Below, piece by piece: positions 6,187 through 40,454 of a stretch of 41,505 bases of DNA. The DNA lies in IMG/VR virus record IMGVR_UViG_3300025109_000019, positions 1 to 41,505 of that record. One strand, 5' to 3'. Numbering within the stretch: position 1 is the first letter of the stretch; the number at the start of each line of letters is the position of its first letter. The stretch comes from a virus. The notes under the pieces were generated by a model. The model searched no databases, had not been told where the DNA came from, and saw only the letters and a program-made list of their open reading frames with translations. The position numbers and the translations under genes are program-made.

Positions 6187-9100
6187 TTATCCTAACTGTT
6201 TGAATGTTTTACCAATAGCATATGTGCTAAATCCCCAGTTCGGGTCATATTTTAACGAGGCCATGTACGGCCTGTTAAGGCGGATTCGATCTTTGTGTGG
6301 TTTTACTCCCCAGCACCTAATGCGAGTTAGTTCGTTATTTGAATCGATCACTTCGACGATCCAGTAATCCTTGCCGTTTTTAGTCTTCTTTGGGATTATC
6401 TTACGCGGAATAAACCAACAAATCTGTAGTTCTTGATCGAACTCGGAGATGGGAGGAATATATTTTTCTTGGAGCTTTTGAACCATTTCCGCATCCACCA
6501 CCAAGTTGAGGGGAAACACTCCAGTAAGGTCGGTCTTAAACTGTATAATCTCTTCTTCCGTAAAGTCCCCCTCGGGTCCATATAGCTCTAGGTTCTCCAT
6601 GAACTTCTTCATACTCTTTGGGCGGTCAACCACGCAGGTTGACCAAAAGTGCTTGCGGCCCGTAAACCTATCATCTACGATATTATCCAGCGCTCCGCCG
6701 CGACAAAGGGCGTCTAGAGCCTTTTTATTTAATTTGCTATATGATACCCCCTCTCGGAATAAAAGGTCCTCAGCGTTCATAAACGGGCGATTCTCCAGGA
6801 CTTGTTCAATTGCAGCCATTCCAAGGCCCTTGATCGAAGTTAGTGGTTGAATGAGGGTTTTACCATTATCACTAATCTCCCATACGGTGCCAGACTTATT
6901 CACATCTAGGGGCGCAATCTCAAATCCAAACTTCTTTGCAATGTTGATCGCCCTCTCCTTGCGACTCTCGGGCTCCTTGTCAAGAAATGCTGCCATCCAC
7001 TCGACTGGATAGTAATTCCACAACCATGCGCATTGAAACGAAATAATGCTGTATGATACGGCGTGTGATTTATTGAAGCCATAGCCGGAGAAGTATTCGA
7101 ACTTATCCCACAGTGCCTGTGCCTCATCTCTGCCAATACCATTGTCTCCGCAACCTGTGATAAACTTATCGTGCAACTTGCCCTTTACAGAGCTTTTGCC
7201 TGTTCCTTTCTTTGTCAATACTTTTCGAAGCATGTTGCCTTCATCGAGAGTCAGGCCACCGAGCTTGTGAGCCAGAAGCGCAATCTGCTCCTGAAAGATG
7301 AGGAACCCAAACGTTTCCTGCGTGATTTCCTGCGCGTCATCGTTCAAATATTTAATGTAATGCGGGTTCTCTTTTGCCTCTACGTATTCATCGTGCACAT
7401 TCGCAGCCAATGGCCCGGGCCGATAGATTGAGGTAATAGCAGACACGTCAATGATATTACGCGGCTTTGCTCGGACACAGAACTTCTGTGCACCCTGCTC
7501 TGTAAACTGGAATACTCCAGCCCACTTTCCAGTATGGAAAATGTTCTCATAAACCTCTTGATTGCTCATATCGATTACATCAGGATGCAGGTTTTTATTA
7601 TAATATTCTCTCACCTGTGAAAACGTTGGCTCCTCGATATCATGATGCCGTTTGAGGATGTGATAGATGGCCCCTTCCATCATCTTTAGAGTAGATAAGC
7701 CCAACAAGTCGAATTTAATGAAACCCATTGGTTCAAGGTGTCGAACGTTTTGACCCTCAGCCCATGGTGCCTGACGCACACCTCCAGAATTAATCAGGGG
7801 CATATTCTCGTTCAGGTTTTCGGCGATCACAACACCACCAGCATGCCGAGAGCATGAGCGTACCTGGCCCACCAAGCCCTCAACGTGAGTCTTGACTGCT
7901 GGGTGCCTATTCAGATACGCCTGCAGTGTCGGCGAAAATTCCATCACCTCTTCCCAAGTGGGAGCATAAACTCCAGCCTTGATGCCGTGCTTTCGCTTAG
8001 CTTCCGGGGTGGCTTCGCGGATCATAATAGAAGTAACGGTATTAACTTCCGTAAATTCAATATTGTATAGTTTTGATATATCCTTGATCAAAGACTTAAG
8101 CTGGAGTGTGTTCCAGTTGGAGATCGGGGCTACGCAATCTTCCCCCCACATGTCTACCAGTTTCTCTTTCAACGCCATGCTATCGGATACATCATAATCG
8201 ATATCCGGATAATCTGTAGCGTCTGAGCGTAAGAAGCGAGAGAACAGGAGCCCGTGCCTGATGGGATCAACCTGGGTAATGTTTAGCGCATATGCTACCA
8301 ACGAGCCGGCGGCGGAACCTCGGCCCGGGCCCGACAGCATTGTACTAGTGGCAACATCAACAATGGATTTCATAGTAAGGAAATACTTTGAAAAGCCGCG
8401 ATCATCGATCACGTTTAACTCACGCTTAAGGCGATCCGCATACTCCTTGTTCGTATGTAGGCCCTTGTTCTTTAGACCCTCTAGGGCAAAATTAACGAGT
8501 GCTTGGGTTGCCGTGTAACCTGCGGGCACTACAAATTCGGGAAGGCGCACTGTATTGTCGGGCAGGAACGATTCGATACGCTCGAAAGCGATGCGGTGTG
8601 TTTCCTCAATACTTTTCAAGACTACTGCATCGTCATACTCAAATCCCGCGGACTTAGAGTATTGCTTGTAGCTTTCCCAGATCTGATCACCGTTCTTTGG
8701 ATATAGCTCGTATCCAATTTCCTCAACGCCCGCAGGAAGTTGGGACTCTTCCTCAGCCCATGAGGGTCTGCCCTTCCCAAGCCAGCCTAGGCGCTTGTAA
8801 AGCTCTCTGTCTTTCCATGCGTCAGGATTAGGGTAGTGGCTATCAGCGGTGGTGACCAGCCTAACGCCAAACTCTTGTGCAACTTGAATGATATACTGAT
8901 TCAATTCGTGCTGCTCTTTAATGTTATTCCACTGAATCTCTGCATACCAGCGATCTCCGAAGATCTCTTGCATGCTCGTGGTTGTCTCGCGCATTGCCTT
9001 TAGAACGGCGTCAGGGCCCTCCTCGCGGTTTTCCCAGTAGTTACCCGCATATATTCCACCAAGGCAAGCAGAAGAGGCTATAACTCCCTCATTATACTTC

Positions 9101-9618
9101 TTCAAGAGAGCGTAGTCAATGCGAGGATATCGATAGAAATTCTCTGCCTTATAGGATTCAGATACAAGCTTAAATAGGTTGTTCAATCCAGTCTGATTCT
9201 GAGCCAACAGCACAAGGTGGCGCCGGCGCTTGAGAATCCCTTGAATCCTCTTGCTGTCTCCTTCGTCTTCGACGGTGGCGCCGGACTGCTCATCCTTTTT
9301 AATCGAGCGGACCTTCTTCTTGTCTTCCATCGCCTTATTGTAGGCTTCGTGCCATTCTGAAATAGACGGTGTGAAGTAAGCTTCGCATCCGAAGATCGGC
9401 TTAAACTCTTTGCCTGCTTCTTGCATCTTCTTCGCATGCAAAACCTGATAGGCTAAGCCGTTCATGTTGCCGTGGTCTGTTAGCGCTAGCGCATCACACC
9501 CGTTCTCGTACGCAAAATCCATGTGGGCTTGCGGGTACCCAATTGCATCAAAAATAGAACCTGCCACGCTATGCGCATGCAAGCCAACGAACTTGATCTT
9601 AGAATCCAATCGACTCAT
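6187..9618 (-). CDS. dnaE: DNA polymerase III alpha subunit (DnaE), replicative polymerase
   Basis: A 1143-residue family C polymerase, near the length of bacterial DnaE (about 1160). The PHP domain begins with LHAHS (13-17) and LTDHGN (about 46-51). The palm shows SGPGRGSAAGSL (429-440), the two metal-binding Asp in PDIDYD (471-476) and the third in FIKFDLLGL (D637). The fingers carry YRPGPL and GYGFNKSHAVSYS, and a helix-hairpin-helix-like stretch LTSIKGLGMAAIEQV follows. This is the likely main replicase. A sliding-clamp binding peptide near the C-terminus is not obvious. A sigma70-type promoter and AGGAGGG site lie immediately upstream, and the HNH gene follows after 4 bases. Confidence 0.97.
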   Translation of the reverse strand: MSRLDSKIKFVGLHAHSVAGSIFDAIGYPQAHMDFAYENGCDALALTDHGNMNGLAYQVLHAKKMQEAGKEFKPIFGCEAYFTPSISEWHEAYNKAMEDKKKVRSIKKDEQSGATVEDEGDSKRIQGILKRRRHLVLLAQNQTGLNNLFKLVSESYKAENFYRYPRIDYALLKKYNEGVIASSACLGGIYAGNYWENREEGPDAVLKAMRETTTSMQEIFGDRWYAEIQWNNIKEQHELNQYIIQVAQEFGVRLVTTADSHYPNPDAWKDRELYKRLGWLGKGRPSWAEEESQLPAGVEEIGYELYPKNGDQIWESYKQYSKSAGFEYDDAVVLKSIEETHRIAFERIESFLPDNTVRLPEFVVPAGYTATQALVNFALEGLKNKGLHTNKEYADRLKRELNVIDDRGFSKYFLTMKSIVDVATSTMLSGPGRGSAAGSLVAYALNITQVDPIRHGLLFSRFLRSDATDYPDIDYDVSDSMALKEKLVDMWGEDCVAPISNWNTLQLKSLIKDISKLYNIEFTEVNTVTSIMIREATPEAKRKHGIKAGVYAPTWEEVMEFSPTLQAYLNRHPAVKTHVEGLVGQVRSCSRHAGGVVIAENLNENMPLINSGGVRQAPWAEGQNVRHLEPMGFIKFDLLGLSTLKMMEGAIYHILKRHHDIEEPTFSQVREYYNKNLHPDVIDMSNQEVYENIFHTGKWAGVFQFTEQGAQKFCVRAKPRNIIDVSAITSIYRPGPLAANVHDEYVEAKENPHYIKYLNDDAQEITQETFGFLIFQEQIALLAHKLGGLTLDEGNMLRKVLTKKGTGKSSVKGKLHDKFITGCGDNGIGRDEAQALWDKFEYFSGYGFNKSHAVSYSIISFQCAWLWNYYPVEWMAAFLDKEPESRKERAINIAKKFGFEIAPLDVNKSGTVWEISDNGKTLIQPLTSIKGLGMAAIEQVLENRPFMNAEDLLFREGVSYSKLNKKALDALCRGGALDNIVDDRFTGRKHFWSTCVVDRPKSMKKFMENLELYGPEGDFTEEEIIQFKTDLTGVFPLNLVVDAEMVQKLQEKYIPPISEFDQELQICWFIPRKIIPKKTKNGKDYWIVEVIDSNNELTRIRCWGVKPHKDRIRLNRPYMASLKYDPNWGFSTYAIGKTFKQLG

Positions 9619-16797: not shown

Positions 16798-17754
16798 TTA
16801 ACACTCAGAGTTGATTTTATTCAGATGTAGTTCAAGGTCTTTCCAATTCAGTTCTCCAAACCCATCATCGCGCATCTTCTTCATAATCTCTATCTTGTTG
16901 AAATTGCACTCAAAGTTCTCAACAGCATTACAAATAAAGTCTTTTGACTGCGGAGAAAGCATTGGAGAATATAGCTGCATCATCTTATAATTGTGTGCAA
17001 TTATTTTTTGTCCCTCGATGATATTGATATGAAATTTAAGTTTTTTATCGATTTTTTCGCAATAAGATACAATATCATCAATTGTATAATCTTTGTCAGA
17101 CCCAAGAAATCCAAGCCGGCGCTGAATACTCTTAAACCCTACTGACTTAATTCCTGGCAAATTATCTGATGCATCTCCCACCAGTGAGCGCGCTAGCGCC
17201 ATATTGCGTGGATGCACTCCCAACTCTTCCACGATCTTTTTCTTATTATATACAACATCGCTAGTGGGTCGGTATACCACTGTTTCATCATCACAGAGTT
17301 GATAAAAATCCTTGTCATTGGAAACAACTACTTTCTGCCACCCATCATAGTAGTGCATTCGTGTGAGATAGGAGATAACATCGTCAGCTTCTACCTCTGG
17401 TAACATTACTTGCACAATAGGCATCTCGTTAAAATACTCAATGGATCGCGTCTGTTGCCAAATTCTATTCTGCATCTCCTCGTTTTCGGTGAGCGCCTTC
17501 ACGTTACGGTTCAAGCGGATTGGCTTTCGTCCTGCTTTATAATTCTTGTCCATAGATCGGCGCTTGCGAGATCCGTTGGGACCATCCCATACGATCACGA
17601 TCTCATTGGGCTTTGTCATGCGTACAAGCTTCTGCACGATCTTAAGCGATCCCTTAAAGCCTCCGATGGGTTCTCCATTTGAGGAGAGGCTAGGATCTAC
17701 AATATAGGCCCTCAAAAACATATTGAGGGCATCGATAATAAGTACTCTTTTCAT
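16798..17754 (-). CDS. 5'-3' exonuclease / flap nuclease (T4 RNase H-like)
   Basis: A 318-residue FEN/PIN-fold nuclease. It begins KRVLIIDALNMFLR with a metal-binding Asp, followed by VIVWDGPNGSRKRR. The acid cluster VEADDVISYL and VVVSNDKDF supply further metal ligands. The helix-three-turn-helix motif reads SLVGDASDNLPGIKSVG. It should remove RNA primers and 5' flaps from lagging-strand DNA, since the family A polymerase in this genome lacks such a domain. Its ATG overlaps the deaminase stop by ATGA. Confidence 0.93.
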   Translation of the reverse strand: MKRVLIIDALNMFLRAYIVDPSLSSNGEPIGGFKGSLKIVQKLVRMTKPNEIVIVWDGPNGSRKRRSMDKNYKAGRKPIRLNRNVKALTENEEMQNRIWQQTRSIEYFNEMPIVQVMLPEVEADDVISYLTRMHYYDGWQKVVVSNDKDFYQLCDDETVVYRPTSDVVYNKKKIVEELGVHPRNMALARSLVGDASDNLPGIKSVGFKSIQRRLGFLGSDKDYTIDDIVSYCEKIDKKLKFHINIIEGQKIIAHNYKMMQLYSPMLSPQSKDFICNAVENFECNFNKIEIMKKMRDDGFGELNWKDLELHLNKINSEC

Positions 17755-18185
17755 AGTTTATAACTTCCTGCGGTTTTATTATTAATAGTATATACGACGC
17801 GCTTAACTCCCACATGCTTGAGTGCCTCGTGGCACATGGAGCACGGCTTTGATAGCTTGTACTCGCCTTCTCGACCTACGCGGGCCACATATACGGTGGC
17901 GCCATCAGTAATACTCCGGTCCATCCCAAGGATGGCCCCAAGCTCTGCATGCAGCGTAGTGCGGCCGGCGTGATCACGCTGGAACCGGGATCCAAATGCG
18001 CAGTAATTATTCTTATTGAACGAGGCGTTGCGAATGGATCCTTTGACAAGTACTGCACCATGGCGATAATCAGGATAAGTCGACTGATGGGCCATGCGCT
18101 TGGCCAATTCCATATAGCGCCGGACCTTGCCAGAGTATTTGTGAAATTTGTCGGCGCTATAGTCTGATGCGTATTCTCGGGCCAT
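17751..18185 (-). CDS. Cytidine/deoxycytidylate deaminase-like enzyme
   Basis: A 144-residue zinc deaminase with HAE (H79, E81) and PCSMC (C115, C118), the standard zinc and proton-shuttle residues. It resembles dCMP deaminases, which make dUMP for dTTP synthesis, though the substrate cannot be fixed from these motifs. I start it at the ATG at 18185. An AGGAGGG lies 13 bases upstream, slightly far; a TTG three codons earlier is closer to that site and is a possible alternative. The ribosome site lies in the 3' arm of a long hairpin that also contains the gene's promoter, so expression is probably controlled (see findings). Confidence 0.88.
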   Translation of the reverse strand: MAREYASDYSADKFHKYSGKVRRYMELAKRMAHQSTYPDYRHGAVLVKGSIRNASFNKNNYCAFGSRFQRDHAGRTTLHAELGAILGMDRSITDGATVYVARVGREGEYKLSKPCSMCHEALKHVGVKRVVYTINNKTAGSYKL

Positions 18186-18195
18186 GGTAGACAAA

Positions 18196-18243
18196 AGCCC
18201 TCCTACAAGCTTATACCTAAGTATAACGTATTGCAGGAGGGCT
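18196..18243 (-). promoter_or_regulatory. RBS-sequestering hairpin, possible terminator
   Basis: On the minus strand a 13-base arm (18231-18243) pairs with 18196-18208 through one G-U pair. Inside, TTATAC and GTATAA (18221-18226 and 18211-18216) form a second 6-bp stem with a TTAG loop. The 3' arm contains the AGGAGGG ribosome site of the deaminase and is followed by a short T-rich run, so it may also end recA transcripts. Confidence 0.75.
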
Positions 18244-18248
18244 GTCAA
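18220..18248 (-). promoter_or_regulatory. Sigma70-type promoter embedded in hairpin, upstream of deaminase
   Basis: The minus strand has TTGACA (18243-18248), 17 bases, then TATACT (18220-18225). Transcription would begin near 18213, after the first arm of the hairpin, so the resulting mRNA cannot form the outer stem that hides the ribosome site. Confidence 0.8.
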
Positions 18249-18254
18249 GCGATT

Positions 18255-19382
18255 TTATTGAGGATCAGAGTAAAACTGATCAGCGCTTCCCTCTCTTTTA
18301 TCAAACTTTTGTACTACTTCCTCGTCCATCAACTGTATGACGTGGGAACGGAATTCCTCATCAGTTTGTACCAGTTGCGCCCATTTAGAAGGTTGAAACT
18401 TCTTCTCATATCCATCAGGCATTGTTAGCGTATACCAAGCGCCGGCACTCTTCATGTGATCAGAAGATTTGACTGCATCAAACCAAGACTCTTCGTCTCG
18501 AATCCCAATATCGTCAGTGCCCCATAGAATACGGAATGCGCAGGTTCTACCTTGCGTCCCAAAACGTGATTTCTCAAGCTTAACCTTAACCTCTGAGCCA
18601 ATGCGGAATCCTTTATCATCTTCGACAAAAGAAGCCTTCGCCTTTCGACCTGTCAACCAGATTCGCAGCGAATACGAATAATGCATTGCCTTGCCTCCGG
18701 GTGTCATATAGGGGGTGGTCATCGCAATAATGCGAGCGTTAGGGCCACTTGGAATGTTAGTCTTAAGCTGGTTGAGTACCACAAACGTTGCCTGCCTGTC
18801 GGCAATTGGAATGATCAGCTTCGACATACCCTTTGCAAGAATGCGCGCCTTTACCGCCATCGAAGATTGGGGATTAAAATCTCCCTCTACGTCTGACACA
18901 GAAGGCGTAAGAGCCAGAGAGTCCCAGATAAACACCAACTGTTCGTCAGTTGCGCCCAGCAACTCTTCTACTGTCTCTAATACAAACTCTACAGAAGATG
19001 CCTGAACGTACATTAAACGGCCTAGGTCGCATCCTGCTCGCTCCAAAAAGCTTGGGTCGATAGCAGACTCCGAATCGAAGTAAACAATCATCTTGCCCTG
19101 TTTCTGGGCGTTTGCGGCTATCTGTGCAGCCATGTAAGACTTACCTGTACTCTCTAGGCCCGCTAGCTCTGTAACCTTGCCAACGGGGATCCCAGCAACA
19201 TGGCCTTTGCAAATAATAGAATCAAGCCAGCGTGAGCCGGTGGGAATCCACTCCTTTACTTCTGTGGGGTTTTCACCCGTTAAATCATGCGCGACATTTC
19301 GGCCGGCCTTCTTGTTGACCAAGCTCATCAGATCCTGCATGGATACGCGACCCGCTTTTGATTCTTTAGCTTTTCTGGCCAT
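18255..19382 (-). CDS. uvsX: RecA/UvsX-like recombinase
   Basis: A 375-residue strand-exchange protein. Walker A is GLESTGKS (75-82), and the second RecA-type strand YFDSESAID follows with the family's acidic residue. VFIWDSLALTP is Walker B, and FVVLNQLKTNI ends in the L2-like region with TPGGKAMHYSYSLR, as in RecA (GGNALKFYASVR). The N-terminal 50 residues are basic. It should coat single-stranded DNA and drive recombination-dependent replication and repair. I start it at the ATG at 19382, which has AGGAGGAGG just upstream; a longer frame would run into the tRNA gene. Confidence 0.95.
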   Translation of the reverse strand: MARKAKESKAGRVSMQDLMSLVNKKAGRNVAHDLTGENPTEVKEWIPTGSRWLDSIICKGHVAGIPVGKVTELAGLESTGKSYMAAQIAANAQKQGKMIVYFDSESAIDPSFLERAGCDLGRLMYVQASSVEFVLETVEELLGATDEQLVFIWDSLALTPSVSDVEGDFNPQSSMAVKARILAKGMSKLIIPIADRQATFVVLNQLKTNIPSGPNARIIAMTTPYMTPGGKAMHYSYSLRIWLTGRKAKASFVEDDKGFRIGSEVKVKLEKSRFGTQGRTCAFRILWGTDDIGIRDEESWFDAVKSSDHMKSAGAWYTLTMPDGYEKKFQPSKWAQLVQTDEEFRSHVIQLMDEEVVQKFDKREGSADQFYSDPQ

Positions 19383-19409: not shown

Positions 19410-19486
19410 TGGACGCAGGGGGTGGATTTGAACCACCGACCTCCGGGTTATGAGGCCGACGAGCTACCAAACTGCTCTACCCTGAA
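19410..19486 (-). tRNA. tRNA-Met (CAT), initiator-type
   Basis: A 77-base tRNA with encoded CCA. The D stem is GAGC/GCTC, the anticodon loop CTCATAA gives CAT, and the T arm is GGTGG, TTCAAAT, CCACC. It aligns base for base in length with E. coli tRNA-fMet and shares its A11:U24 pair, TAGCTCGTCGG segment and weak acceptor end (1:72 is U-G, 2:71 is U-C). One anticodon-stem pair (31:39) is a C-C mismatch, so only two of the three initiator G-C pairs are present. It lies between the SSB gene and uvsX. Confidence 0.88.
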
Positions 19487-20318: not shown

Positions 20319-20350
20319 TTATTGTCTCCTTTTGTTTTTATGGTTAGAGT

Positions 20351-20371
20351 ATATCAAGCGTTCCTTGATAT
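20351..20371 (-). promoter_or_regulatory. Perfect 8-bp inverted repeat at the SSB promoter start site
   Basis: ATATCAAG and CTTGATAT (20351-20358 and 20364-20371) are separated by 5 bases. The repeat begins 2 bases after the -10 box and covers the expected start site (about 20367), where a repressor operator or an mRNA leader hairpin would act. Confidence 0.6.
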
Positions 20372-20373
20372 CT

Positions 20374-20402
20374 AATGTAACACTCTCAACTTATCTTGTC
20401 AA
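20374..20402 (-). promoter_or_regulatory. Sigma70-type promoter of the SSB gene, extended -10
   Basis: The minus strand has TTGACA (20397-20402), 17 bases, then TACATT (20374-20379) preceded by TGT. It overlaps the last codons of the tubulin-like gene. Confidence 0.78.
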
Positions 20403-21244
20403 GAGTTTTTTTGTTGTTGTGTAGCGTTAGTGTGGGCAACGCAAAACCCAAAATCTGAGAGGTGTGTTTCATATATTGCATACGAAATCTTGTGGTATGC
20501 ATTTCGTGGCTTTTCCTTAAGCATGTCTACAATACGTTTGTGCAACCCGACCTCATCTTCTAGTCTTTGTTCATTTATACATAAATAATAACACACATCT
20601 CGGGACATGTCAAGCTCAAAGAACCACTTTTCTTGAAGATTTTTTGGATCCAGCATCCCCAAAGAGCGTATGCGATTAATATCGGACGGCTTGGCAACTT
20701 GGCCAATTTCGGGATCCGTATGGTCAAAGAAATTTAAATAATGAACAGCAGAAAAAATGGCGTTATTTAGCGAATCATAGTAATTTTTAATTGAAATGTT
20801 CTGTATATTTTGTTCTATGCTTTCATTAGAGATTATCGTCACAGAATGCAGCAACCCTGAACGCGCATATTCCTGTAAGACCCCAAACACAAGATTTTCT
20901 AATAATTTTGGGACTCCAGTTAATAGCTCGATATCTGGTTTGATATAAAAGACATCTATCTTTTTATCTTTTATTTGTTCTAAAATGCCAAGAGAATAAT
21001 TCGAACTATAAGAAGACCCAACAATGAATATTTGAACATAATCATTTAAGTCCGAAAAAAACTTTTTTAAGTCGGGAATATTGTTCTCGTATTCTTCGGG
21101 TTTCTCAAAAACTTTAAGCTTATGCTTGTACTTTGTGTTGCGTTCAATTTTACTATTTAACAAATATACGTTATAGTTTTTTTGAGCTTTAAATTTTTCA
21201 GCAATTGCGGATGCGGCAGATCCAATGCCCACTACCGATATCAT
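20399..21244 (-). CDS. Divergent FtsZ/tubulin-superfamily-like protein
   Basis: A 281-residue protein whose layout follows FtsZ. Strand-helix MISVVGIGSAASAIAEKF fits the first FtsZ loop (usually GVGGGGxNAV), and VYLLNS fits the next strand. IFIVGSSYSSN stands at the place of the GGGTGTG signature, which is therefore degenerate. LLHSVTIISNESI fits the VDTLIVIPND strand, NAIFSAVHYLNFF the following helix, and AKPSDINRI the DFADVKTV segment. The last 70 residues fit an FtsZ C-terminal domain with two strands around helix LHKRIVDMLKEK. Loss of the Gly-rich loop argues against normal GTPase activity. It overlaps the polymerase gene by ATGA. Fold call is by eye; filament formation is unproven. Confidence 0.6.
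   Translation of the reverse strand: MISVVGIGSAASAIAEKFKAQKNYNVYLLNSKIERNTKYKHKLKVFEKPEEYENNIPDLKKFFSDLNDYVQIFIVGSSYSSNYSLGILEQIKDKKIDVFYIKPDIELLTGVPKLLENLVFGVLQEYARSGLLHSVTIISNESIEQNIQNISIKNYYDSLNNAIFSAVHYLNFFDHTDPEIGQVAKPSDINRIRSLGMLDPKNLQEKWFFELDMSRDVCYYLCINEQRLEDEVGLHKRIVDMLKEKPRNAYHKISYAIYETHLSDFGFCVAHTNATQQQKNS
20585..20613 (-). promoter_or_regulatory. Sigma70-type promoter inside the tubulin-like gene
   Basis: The minus strand has TTGACA (20608-20613), 17 bases, then TATTAT (20585-20590) preceded by TGT. It lies about 210 bases upstream of the main SSB promoter and points the same way, so the SSB gene may have tandem promoters. Confidence 0.6.
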
Positions 21245-22431
21245 AACCTTAAATCCTCCAAATCATAGTAATTTGTGCCGGCTTCCATATTAACCACAAA
21301 TTTATCAAGAATATTGTTTGAAAATATTTCTTTTATTTCCGGTACTAAGTCTTTTTCATCATTACTCAGATCTATTACTATCTCGTCATGCACAATGTGT
21401 GAAACAAAAGATTTCTTGTCTTCCAAGAATCGATCAATTTCAATCGCCCTAGACATTACCAAGTCTGCGGTGGTGCTTTGTATAATATAATTAAAGGCGC
21501 GCCTTTCATCAACTTTTATCTTGCGGCCGGCTATAGTCTGAACATAACCTCCTTCGTAATATTCTTTTACAACATCCTCGCGATTGTAGTATTTTGAGTC
21601 TAAGTCTTTTGAATCGTGATTATAGAGCCACGAAAATAATAGAGTTTTTGCCTCAGATCTATCAAGAATCGCACGATTTTTGAAAATATTGTCGATGTTC
21701 CACATGTGAATATCATATTGTGGCTGATTTTTGCCGGATAAGGCTAAAAATGTTCGAATTTCTGCTCCATTATAATCTAAAGATAAGAACCAATCATTGC
21801 GCGGTTTTATTAATTTTCTCAGTTGCCTGTTCATTGTTAAGATAGGAAATGAGCCCGGGGCCGTTGCCAAGCGTCCCGTGACAGTCCCAAATAGATTATA
21901 GTCTATATACGGGCTTCCTTTTAGAATTTTATTAGCGGCGCCTCGGTGAACAGATGAGACAAACAATTTTCTACATCCTTCATTGCTAATGTTTAATTTT
22001 TGATGGCGTATTTTATGCACCAATTTCTGAGCTTTATCTAGATGATCATAATTTCCTGGTTTTTCGAAATTCTCAAAAACATGCTTCGTTATTTGATTTT
22101 TTACTTCTAAAAATTCTAACAAAAAATCATGTGGTACCAAGTCAAAGAAACAATGATCACGAAAATCAATTTTTGCTAATTCAAATGATTTTTTATACGC
22201 CGACATCTTTGACTGCAATCGACGCAGCGTTGGCTGCAGTGTGGGAGGGCAGCCTTTCTCTATGGGGCCGCCACCACAATAAAGCCACGCATACTCTATT
22301 GCCTCGTCTACCAAGGAACCTGAATATTTCCACGTTCTAAGGAGGCTTTCTGGCATTTCATCAAAATGCAACTGGCCGTCAGCATAAACACCAATACATT
22401 CATTTTTATCGTCGATTGCTTGAAAATACAT
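21241..22431 (-). CDS. Minimal family A DNA polymerase
   Basis: A 396-residue family A polymerase consisting almost only of palm and fingers. FGTVTGRL (T-G-R-L) is followed by motif A DYNGAEIR (D219, E224, R226). Motif B is RSEAKTLLFSWLYN (R258, K262, F266, Y270), QSTTADL follows, and motif C is HDE (348-350), so all catalytic residues are present. There is no proofreading exonuclease or 5' nuclease domain; the first 95 residues match neither. Pol I has 928 residues and T7 polymerase 704. With DnaE as likely replicase, this may serve repair, primer gap filling or translesion synthesis. No strong ribosome site precedes the ATG. It follows the virion operon by 8 bases. Confidence 0.88.
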   Translation of the reverse strand: MYFQAIDDKNECIGVYADGQLHFDEMPESLLRTWKYSGSLVDEAIEYAWLYCGGGPIEKGCPPTLQPTLRRLQSKMSAYKKSFELAKIDFRDHCFFDLVPHDFLLEFLEVKNQITKHVFENFEKPGNYDHLDKAQKLVHKIRHQKLNISNEGCRKLFVSSVHRGAANKILKGSPYIDYNLFGTVTGRLATAPGSFPILTMNRQLRKLIKPRNDWFLSLDYNGAEIRTFLALSGKNQPQYDIHMWNIDNIFKNRAILDRSEAKTLLFSWLYNHDSKDLDSKYYNREDVVKEYYEGGYVQTIAGRKIKVDERRAFNYIIQSTTADLVMSRAIEIDRFLEDKKSFVSHIVHDEIVIDLSNDEKDLVPEIKEIFSNNILDKFVVNMEAGTNYYDLEDLRL

Positions 22432-40439: not shown

Positions 40440-40454
40440 ATATAAATAGTTTTA
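40440..40454 (-). promoter_or_regulatory. Late-gene motif (ACTATTTAT)
   Basis: The minus strand reads TAAAACTATTTATAT, between the capsid terminator and the 135-residue virion gene, about 65 bases before its start. Confidence 0.45.

Follow-up and report, generated by a model that had tools for sequence, protein, structure and literature searches.

Several genes of phage T4 (e, soc, 49 and I-TevI; also segB, and mobE of phage Aeh1) are preceded by a hairpin that hides the Shine-Dalgarno sequence (SD) in long transcripts, and a nearby upstream promoter, which for gene e lies where the hairpin's 5' strand is encoded, yields transcripts that lack this strand and are translated, according to two published accounts (PMC3014915, PMC2988022). 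Their passages on the subject describe the embedded promoters of gene e and I-TevI as phage late promoters, so that translation is delayed, and assign these hairpins neither a U-tract nor a role in termination. Here we analyze a hairpin between uvsX and a deaminase gene in a 41,505-nucleotide stretch of viral DNA (IMG/VR record IMGVR_UViG_3300025109_000019, positions 1 to 41,505; hereafter the window). We read it, with a probability of about two in three, as an insulating hairpin with a nested promoter: polymerase arriving from uvsX would terminate in part, the SD would be hidden in RNA that reads through, and the deaminase would be run by its own promoter.

The element shares features with three described systems. 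As in the gene e type, its SD is predicted to be paired in the long transcript; unlike that type, its promoter is sigma-70-like, as are those of its neighbors, a U-tract follows the stem, and the SD of some relatives lies outside the hairpin. As in intrinsic (Rho-independent) terminators, a GC-rich stem and a T-run stand just after the upstream gene, and terminator scores are positive for the window and for several distant relatives, but here the stem straddles a complete promoter only 11 nt past a stop codon and, in the clade of the window, its 3' arm and the T-run double as SD and start-codon region for the gene that follows. The promoter-early stem-loop (PeSL) cassettes of T4-type phages, reportedly described by Arbiol et al. 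in 2010, are said to consist of an adjacent stem-loop and promoter; the window likewise has both in a small intergenic cassette that occurs before different genes, but its promoter lies inside the stem-loop, with the 5' arm between -35 and -10. A literature search that left most subscription journals outside its reach turned up no account of a complete promoter and SD inside a terminator, and T4 appears to be only a partial precedent for hairpin punctuation that combines terminator and promoter.

A promoter nested in the uvsX-deaminase hairpin

The genes of the locus read from the minus strand, with the RecA-family recombinase gene uvsX (18255..19379; Pfam RecA PF00154, E 1e-34) upstream of the hairpin and a gene of the dCMP/cytidine deaminase family (17751..18194; Pfam PF00383, E 2e-12) downstream. 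After the uvsX stop codon (18257-18255), which is 11 nt ahead of the stem, this strand reads CGC TTGACA GCCCTCCTGCAATACGT TATACT TAGGTATAAGCTTGTAGGAGGGCTTTTGTCTACCATG. The -35 hexamer TTGACA (18243..18248), whose TTGAC is invariant among 33 aligned relatives, is separated by a spacer of 17 from the -10 hexamer TATACT (18220..18225); the end of the -35 meets the start of the outer stem's 5' arm AGCCCTCCTGCAA (18231..18243), which occupies most of the spacer. This arm pairs with the 3' arm TTGTAGGAGGGCT (18196..18208) to form an outer stem of 13 bp including one G-U. The enclosed loop of 22 nt holds the -10 hexamer and an inner 6-bp stem (18211..18226; TTATAC at 18226-18221 with GTATAA at 18216-18211) that closes a short loop. 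Transcription from the embedded promoter is expected to start at about 18213, some 7 nt past the -10 and within the 3' strand of the inner stem, and hence in the loop. The SD, AGGAGGG (18198..18204), lies inside the 3' arm, and the U-tract TTTTGTCT (18189..18196) abuts the GGGC end of the stem and includes a TTG. This in-frame TTG (18194-18192), rather than the ATG at 18185, 9 nt further, is the likely start codon of the deaminase, since most relatives have ATG, GTG or TTG at the aligned place.

Folding of the hairpin region beat 200/200 dinucleotide shuffles (z -3.6), and its energy of -26.1 kcal/mol over 13 bp is in keeping with the stable, GC-rich stem of an intrinsic terminator. The predicted probability that the SD is unpaired is 0.00 in RNA reading through from uvsX and 0.37 in RNA from the embedded promoter; over 56 loci the medians are 0.00 and 0.47, whereas control promoters give 0.50 and 0.60. 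A sequence-only reading of this DNA had proposed the 13-bp stem with one G-U and its inner stem pairing away AGGAGGG, a TTGACA-17-TATACT promoter across the 5' arm with its expected start past that arm, and a difference in SD exposure between the two transcripts. Its statements about the sequence are all borne out on the minus strand, and folding of both transcripts agrees with the predicted exposure. An Rfam scan of the window found no known RNA family at the element, with a tRNA alone reaching threshold.

At the start-codon position itself, deaminase homologues of some relatives (L012:1803 and L110:1188; also L013) carry ATC exactly where other relatives have ATG, GTG or TTG. An AUC start is possible in these homologues, given this ATC and an in-frame TAG four codons upstream.

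Pairing is maintained across divergent relatives

A nucleotide search of named phages gave no match, and the uvsX protein has relatives there at only about 30% identity; the window's phage therefore has no cultured close relative. We drew on 153 loci from two protein scans of viral contigs (marine); the place of the element there is immediately behind uvsX or one small gene further on (the slot). Pairing statistics use a set defined by position, in which every slot promoter counts whether or not it pairs, in place of a set chosen for pairing. Because the loci are related, all p-values below overstate independence.

The promoter spacer and the leader form a duplex of -12 kcal/mol or stronger at 61/69 slot promoters, as against 15/273 other promoters on the same contigs (p = 3e-34), so the arms that the sequence-only reading expected in related phages are indeed present there. 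Pairing between the -10 and the leader is also stronger at the slot than at other promoters (p = 3e-10). The mean slot duplex was -18.2 kcal/mol as found and -13.6 (sd 0.3) after spacers were dealt among sites; since dealing weakens the pairing, spacer and leader are matched site by site. Outside the slot after uvsX, strong cases were almost absent from the window and from about 720 kb of contig sequence retrieved for its relatives. Across lineages the arm sequences diverge while complementarity is kept (GCCCTCCTG..TAGGAGGGC, CCCCCTGAT..ATCAGGGGG, GCCCTTCTT..AGGAAGGGC, CCTCCCAAT..GTTGGGAGG), and this covariation among divergent relatives argues that the hairpin is under selection.

We also considered whether all promoters of these phages carry hairpins, and found no support for the idea: local hairpins within the spacer are stronger than in shuffled sequence at the dnaB slot (1/200), whereas the uvsX slot shows no such excess (75/200). 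A hairpin of another kind, ACTCTTGA..TCAAGAGT or a variant of it, lies at the promoter of the gp32-like gene (window 20319-20398, minus strand), where it spans the -35 and stops just short of the -10; it is common to the window and the six relatives examined (L001, L004, L039, L070, L073 and L193).

Termination as the probable shared core

What follows the SD arm differs between the slot and other promoters. The first 6 bases after the arm contain on average 4.1 T and 0.5 A at the slot, compared with 1.6 T and 2.7 A after the SDs of other promoters (p = 7e-17). In the window, a U-tract with an nT of 3.66 stands right behind the stem, as in an intrinsic terminator, and the element has a terminator d-score of +4.5; d-scores exceed 0 at 17/69 slots, the window included, and at 0/273 other promoters. 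Three stand-alone hairpins on the same contig score +38.7, +1.2 and -17.0. Eight distant uvsX-deaminase loci (L133, L137, L138, L139, L142, L143, L144 and L148) keep the same geometry followed by four to eight T, with the start codon at least 18 nt beyond hairpin and T-run and often with a separate SD. A hairpin so placed cannot act mainly by hiding the SD, and since hairpin and U-tract are kept where the SD lies outside, SD hiding by itself accounts for less of the data than termination does. The core shared across relatives is thus most likely an intrinsic terminator around a promoter, to which SD hiding would add a second lock in the window's clade. The anatomy, conservation, covariation, U-tract and predicted SD exposure are established by sequence and its comparison among relatives.

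From these features we infer a start site, actual termination and an actual difference in translation, which would combine as follows. Polymerase coming from uvsX would transcribe the full hairpin and then UUUUGUCU, terminating there part of the time and so generating the 3' end of the uvsX message. Because the stem follows the uvsX stop codon by only 11 nt (the median of 59 loci is 14), a ribosome close behind the polymerase should often permit read-through while uvsX is being translated; in E. coli, a trailing ribosome can largely repress terminators that near a stop codon (PMC4824070). Once the ribosome has gone, the hairpin would fold and bury the deaminase SD, leaving the read-through RNA untranslated. 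RNA from the embedded sigma-70-type promoter would start in the loop without the 5' arm, could therefore neither terminate at the hairpin nor hide the SD, and would express the deaminase. One hairpin would in this way provide two locks that only loop-initiated RNA escapes, and the net effect would be a deaminase output set by its own promoter and independent of the upstream replication operon.

Alternative explanations

The strongest rival, though an unlikely one, is a pure translational switch of the gene e or I-TevI type, in which the hairpin only hides the SD of read-through RNA, nothing terminates, and the embedded promoter supplies translatable mRNA. The T4 precedents (PMC3014915, PMC2988022) speak for it, as do the predicted hiding of the SD in the long RNA and exposure in the short one, the short U-tracts of many close relatives, and the position of the stem no more than 11 nt behind the stop codon of uvsX, a distance at which ribosomes can repress terminators. 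Such a switch would have no need of the T-run, which is specific to slot sites, nor would it account for distant relatives that retain hairpin and T-run with the start codon at least 18 nt off and often a separate SD; the embedded promoter, moreover, does not belong to a different (late) class. The proposal in the sequence-only reading that read-through RNA is silenced or stopped accordingly survives in its predicted hiding and exposure of the SD, but not with SD hiding as the main story; its parallel with T4 gene e applies to the geometry only, as T4's embedded promoters are late and the window's matches the type of its neighbors, which gives no indication of an early/late switch. Rather less probable still is a plain uvsX terminator whose overlap with promoter and SD is mere compaction, the SD hiding having no effect since little RNA reads through. 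The U-tract, the d-score, the distant relatives with an SD outside the hairpin and the stand-alone terminator-like hairpins on the same contig would suit it, whereas the near-certain burial of the SD predicted for read-through RNA would not.

Two further possibilities were rejected. That the inverted repeat is a DNA operator, with a repressor covering the promoter that the repeat overlaps, is very improbable: the arms vary between lineages yet stay complementary, G-U pairs are tolerated and just one of the two sides has a T-run, all of which point to RNA rather than a fixed binding site. Purine-rich SDs will pair with CCTCC anywhere, so a CCTCC-rich spacer could match a strong SD by accident, but we give chance complementarity almost no weight, because other promoters of the same phages seldom pair (15/273, against 61/69 at the slot) and because the pairing is partner-specific and reaches beyond the SD.

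Several observations weigh against the insulating hairpin with a nested promoter. Two-sided covariation is weak within the close clade (4 two-sided pairs, a count equaled or exceeded in 322/500 shuffles) because the SD arm is nearly invariant, and the case for compensation comes from wider relatives, which are phylogenetically non-independent. Without the inner stem, the loop would be long for a terminator. The close clade of the window often has a short U-tract (CTTTATG) with a negative d-score, so termination may be weak in this group, and since only CTTTATG follows the stem in many of these relatives, SD hiding may matter more. Finally, long-range pairing is absent at 8/69 slots, most of which have a short spacer hairpin instead. 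In L016, L041/L044/L045, L068 and L125 the long stem is replaced by a hairpin within the spacer that reaches up to the -10 or stops just short of it, and L022, where long-range pairing is marginal, has a spacer hairpin with the same end point. Over the nine exceptional slots (the eight without a long stem and L022), local folding exceeds that of other promoters (p = 0.001); this set includes L060 and L064, which have no local hairpin, and L041/L044/L045, which are close relatives.

Promoter class, downstream genes and spread

The embedded TTGACA/TATACT is, as a sequence class, of the same TTGACA/TATAAT type as the gp32, uvsX and dnaB promoters of these phages, so that, by this measure, it is not a later-class promoter than the one upstream. 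The window virus encodes tail sheath, head-tail adaptor and endolysin genes, and these, among others, are preceded instead by the motif ACTATTTA, a candidate for the late promoter in these phages; in the window it occurs on the minus strand at 40450, 39447, 36725, 31627, 27685 and 12942.

The sequence-only reading had also taken the switch to act on a nucleotide-pool enzyme in particular. This does not extend to relatives, in which the genes behind the element encode, besides deaminase, FEN exonuclease, UvdE, pyrimidine-dimer glycosylase and small proteins. Because it precedes different genes, as a PeSL-like cassette would, the element goes with the slot rather than with any one enzyme. With a promoter of its neighbors' type and repair genes also behind the element, insulation looks like a better fit than an early/late switch or a timed nucleotide-pool switch. 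In some relatives (L070:7196 and L076:7196; also L077 and L078) the promoter-hairpin is intact before a deaminase remnant of 37 residues, made up of about 12 N-terminal and 25 C-terminal residues joined in frame.

A scan of viral contigs for the pattern TTGAC-N5-CCNCC..TATAAT..GGNGGNTTTT found 23 loci, against 0 for a control with reversed hexamers. At L203, L201 and, from a related scan, L194-L197, the element adjoins genes unlike those of the window's phage group, and for this reason the promoter-in-hairpin arrangement probably arose more than once. A stricter pattern matched 7 loci in a collection of bacterial and archaeal genomes (84,980 species), 4 of them in Megasphaera. These four (L221, L222, L224 and L225) have the order arm, promoter, SD, arm and T-run, with an A-tract/U-tract stem and the same gene behind in all four genomes; the order also occurs in bacterial chromosomes at L219, L223 and L220.

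By nesting a promoter in an insulating hairpin, a phage could fit the end of one message together with the start and ribosome site of the following one into about 50 bases while neighbors on the same strand stay independent. The design may be general, being kept by compensatory change in a large marine phage group and found also beside unrelated phage genes and in Megasphaera. More tentatively, and at somewhat less than even odds, such hairpins of about 50 nt, uniting terminator, promoter and often SD, could have evolved repeatedly and by convergence, as punctuation that lets neighboring genes on one strand of phages and some bacteria be transcribed and translated independently; polymerase released at the U-tract might even initiate again from the promoter just traversed, a step comparable to polymerase recycling (PMC6978380). 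Annotation tools may miss such a design because they call terminators, promoters and ribosome sites separately. It could also serve as a compact insulator part.

Other features of the window

A minus-strand tRNA-Met (CAT) at 19410-19486 separates the gp32-like gene from uvsX. The contig carries two DNA polymerase-type genes, also on the minus strand: the product of 6187-9618 has 1143 aa and matches PHROG 405 (DNA polymerase), and that of 21241-22431 is a family-A polymerase protein of 396 aa.
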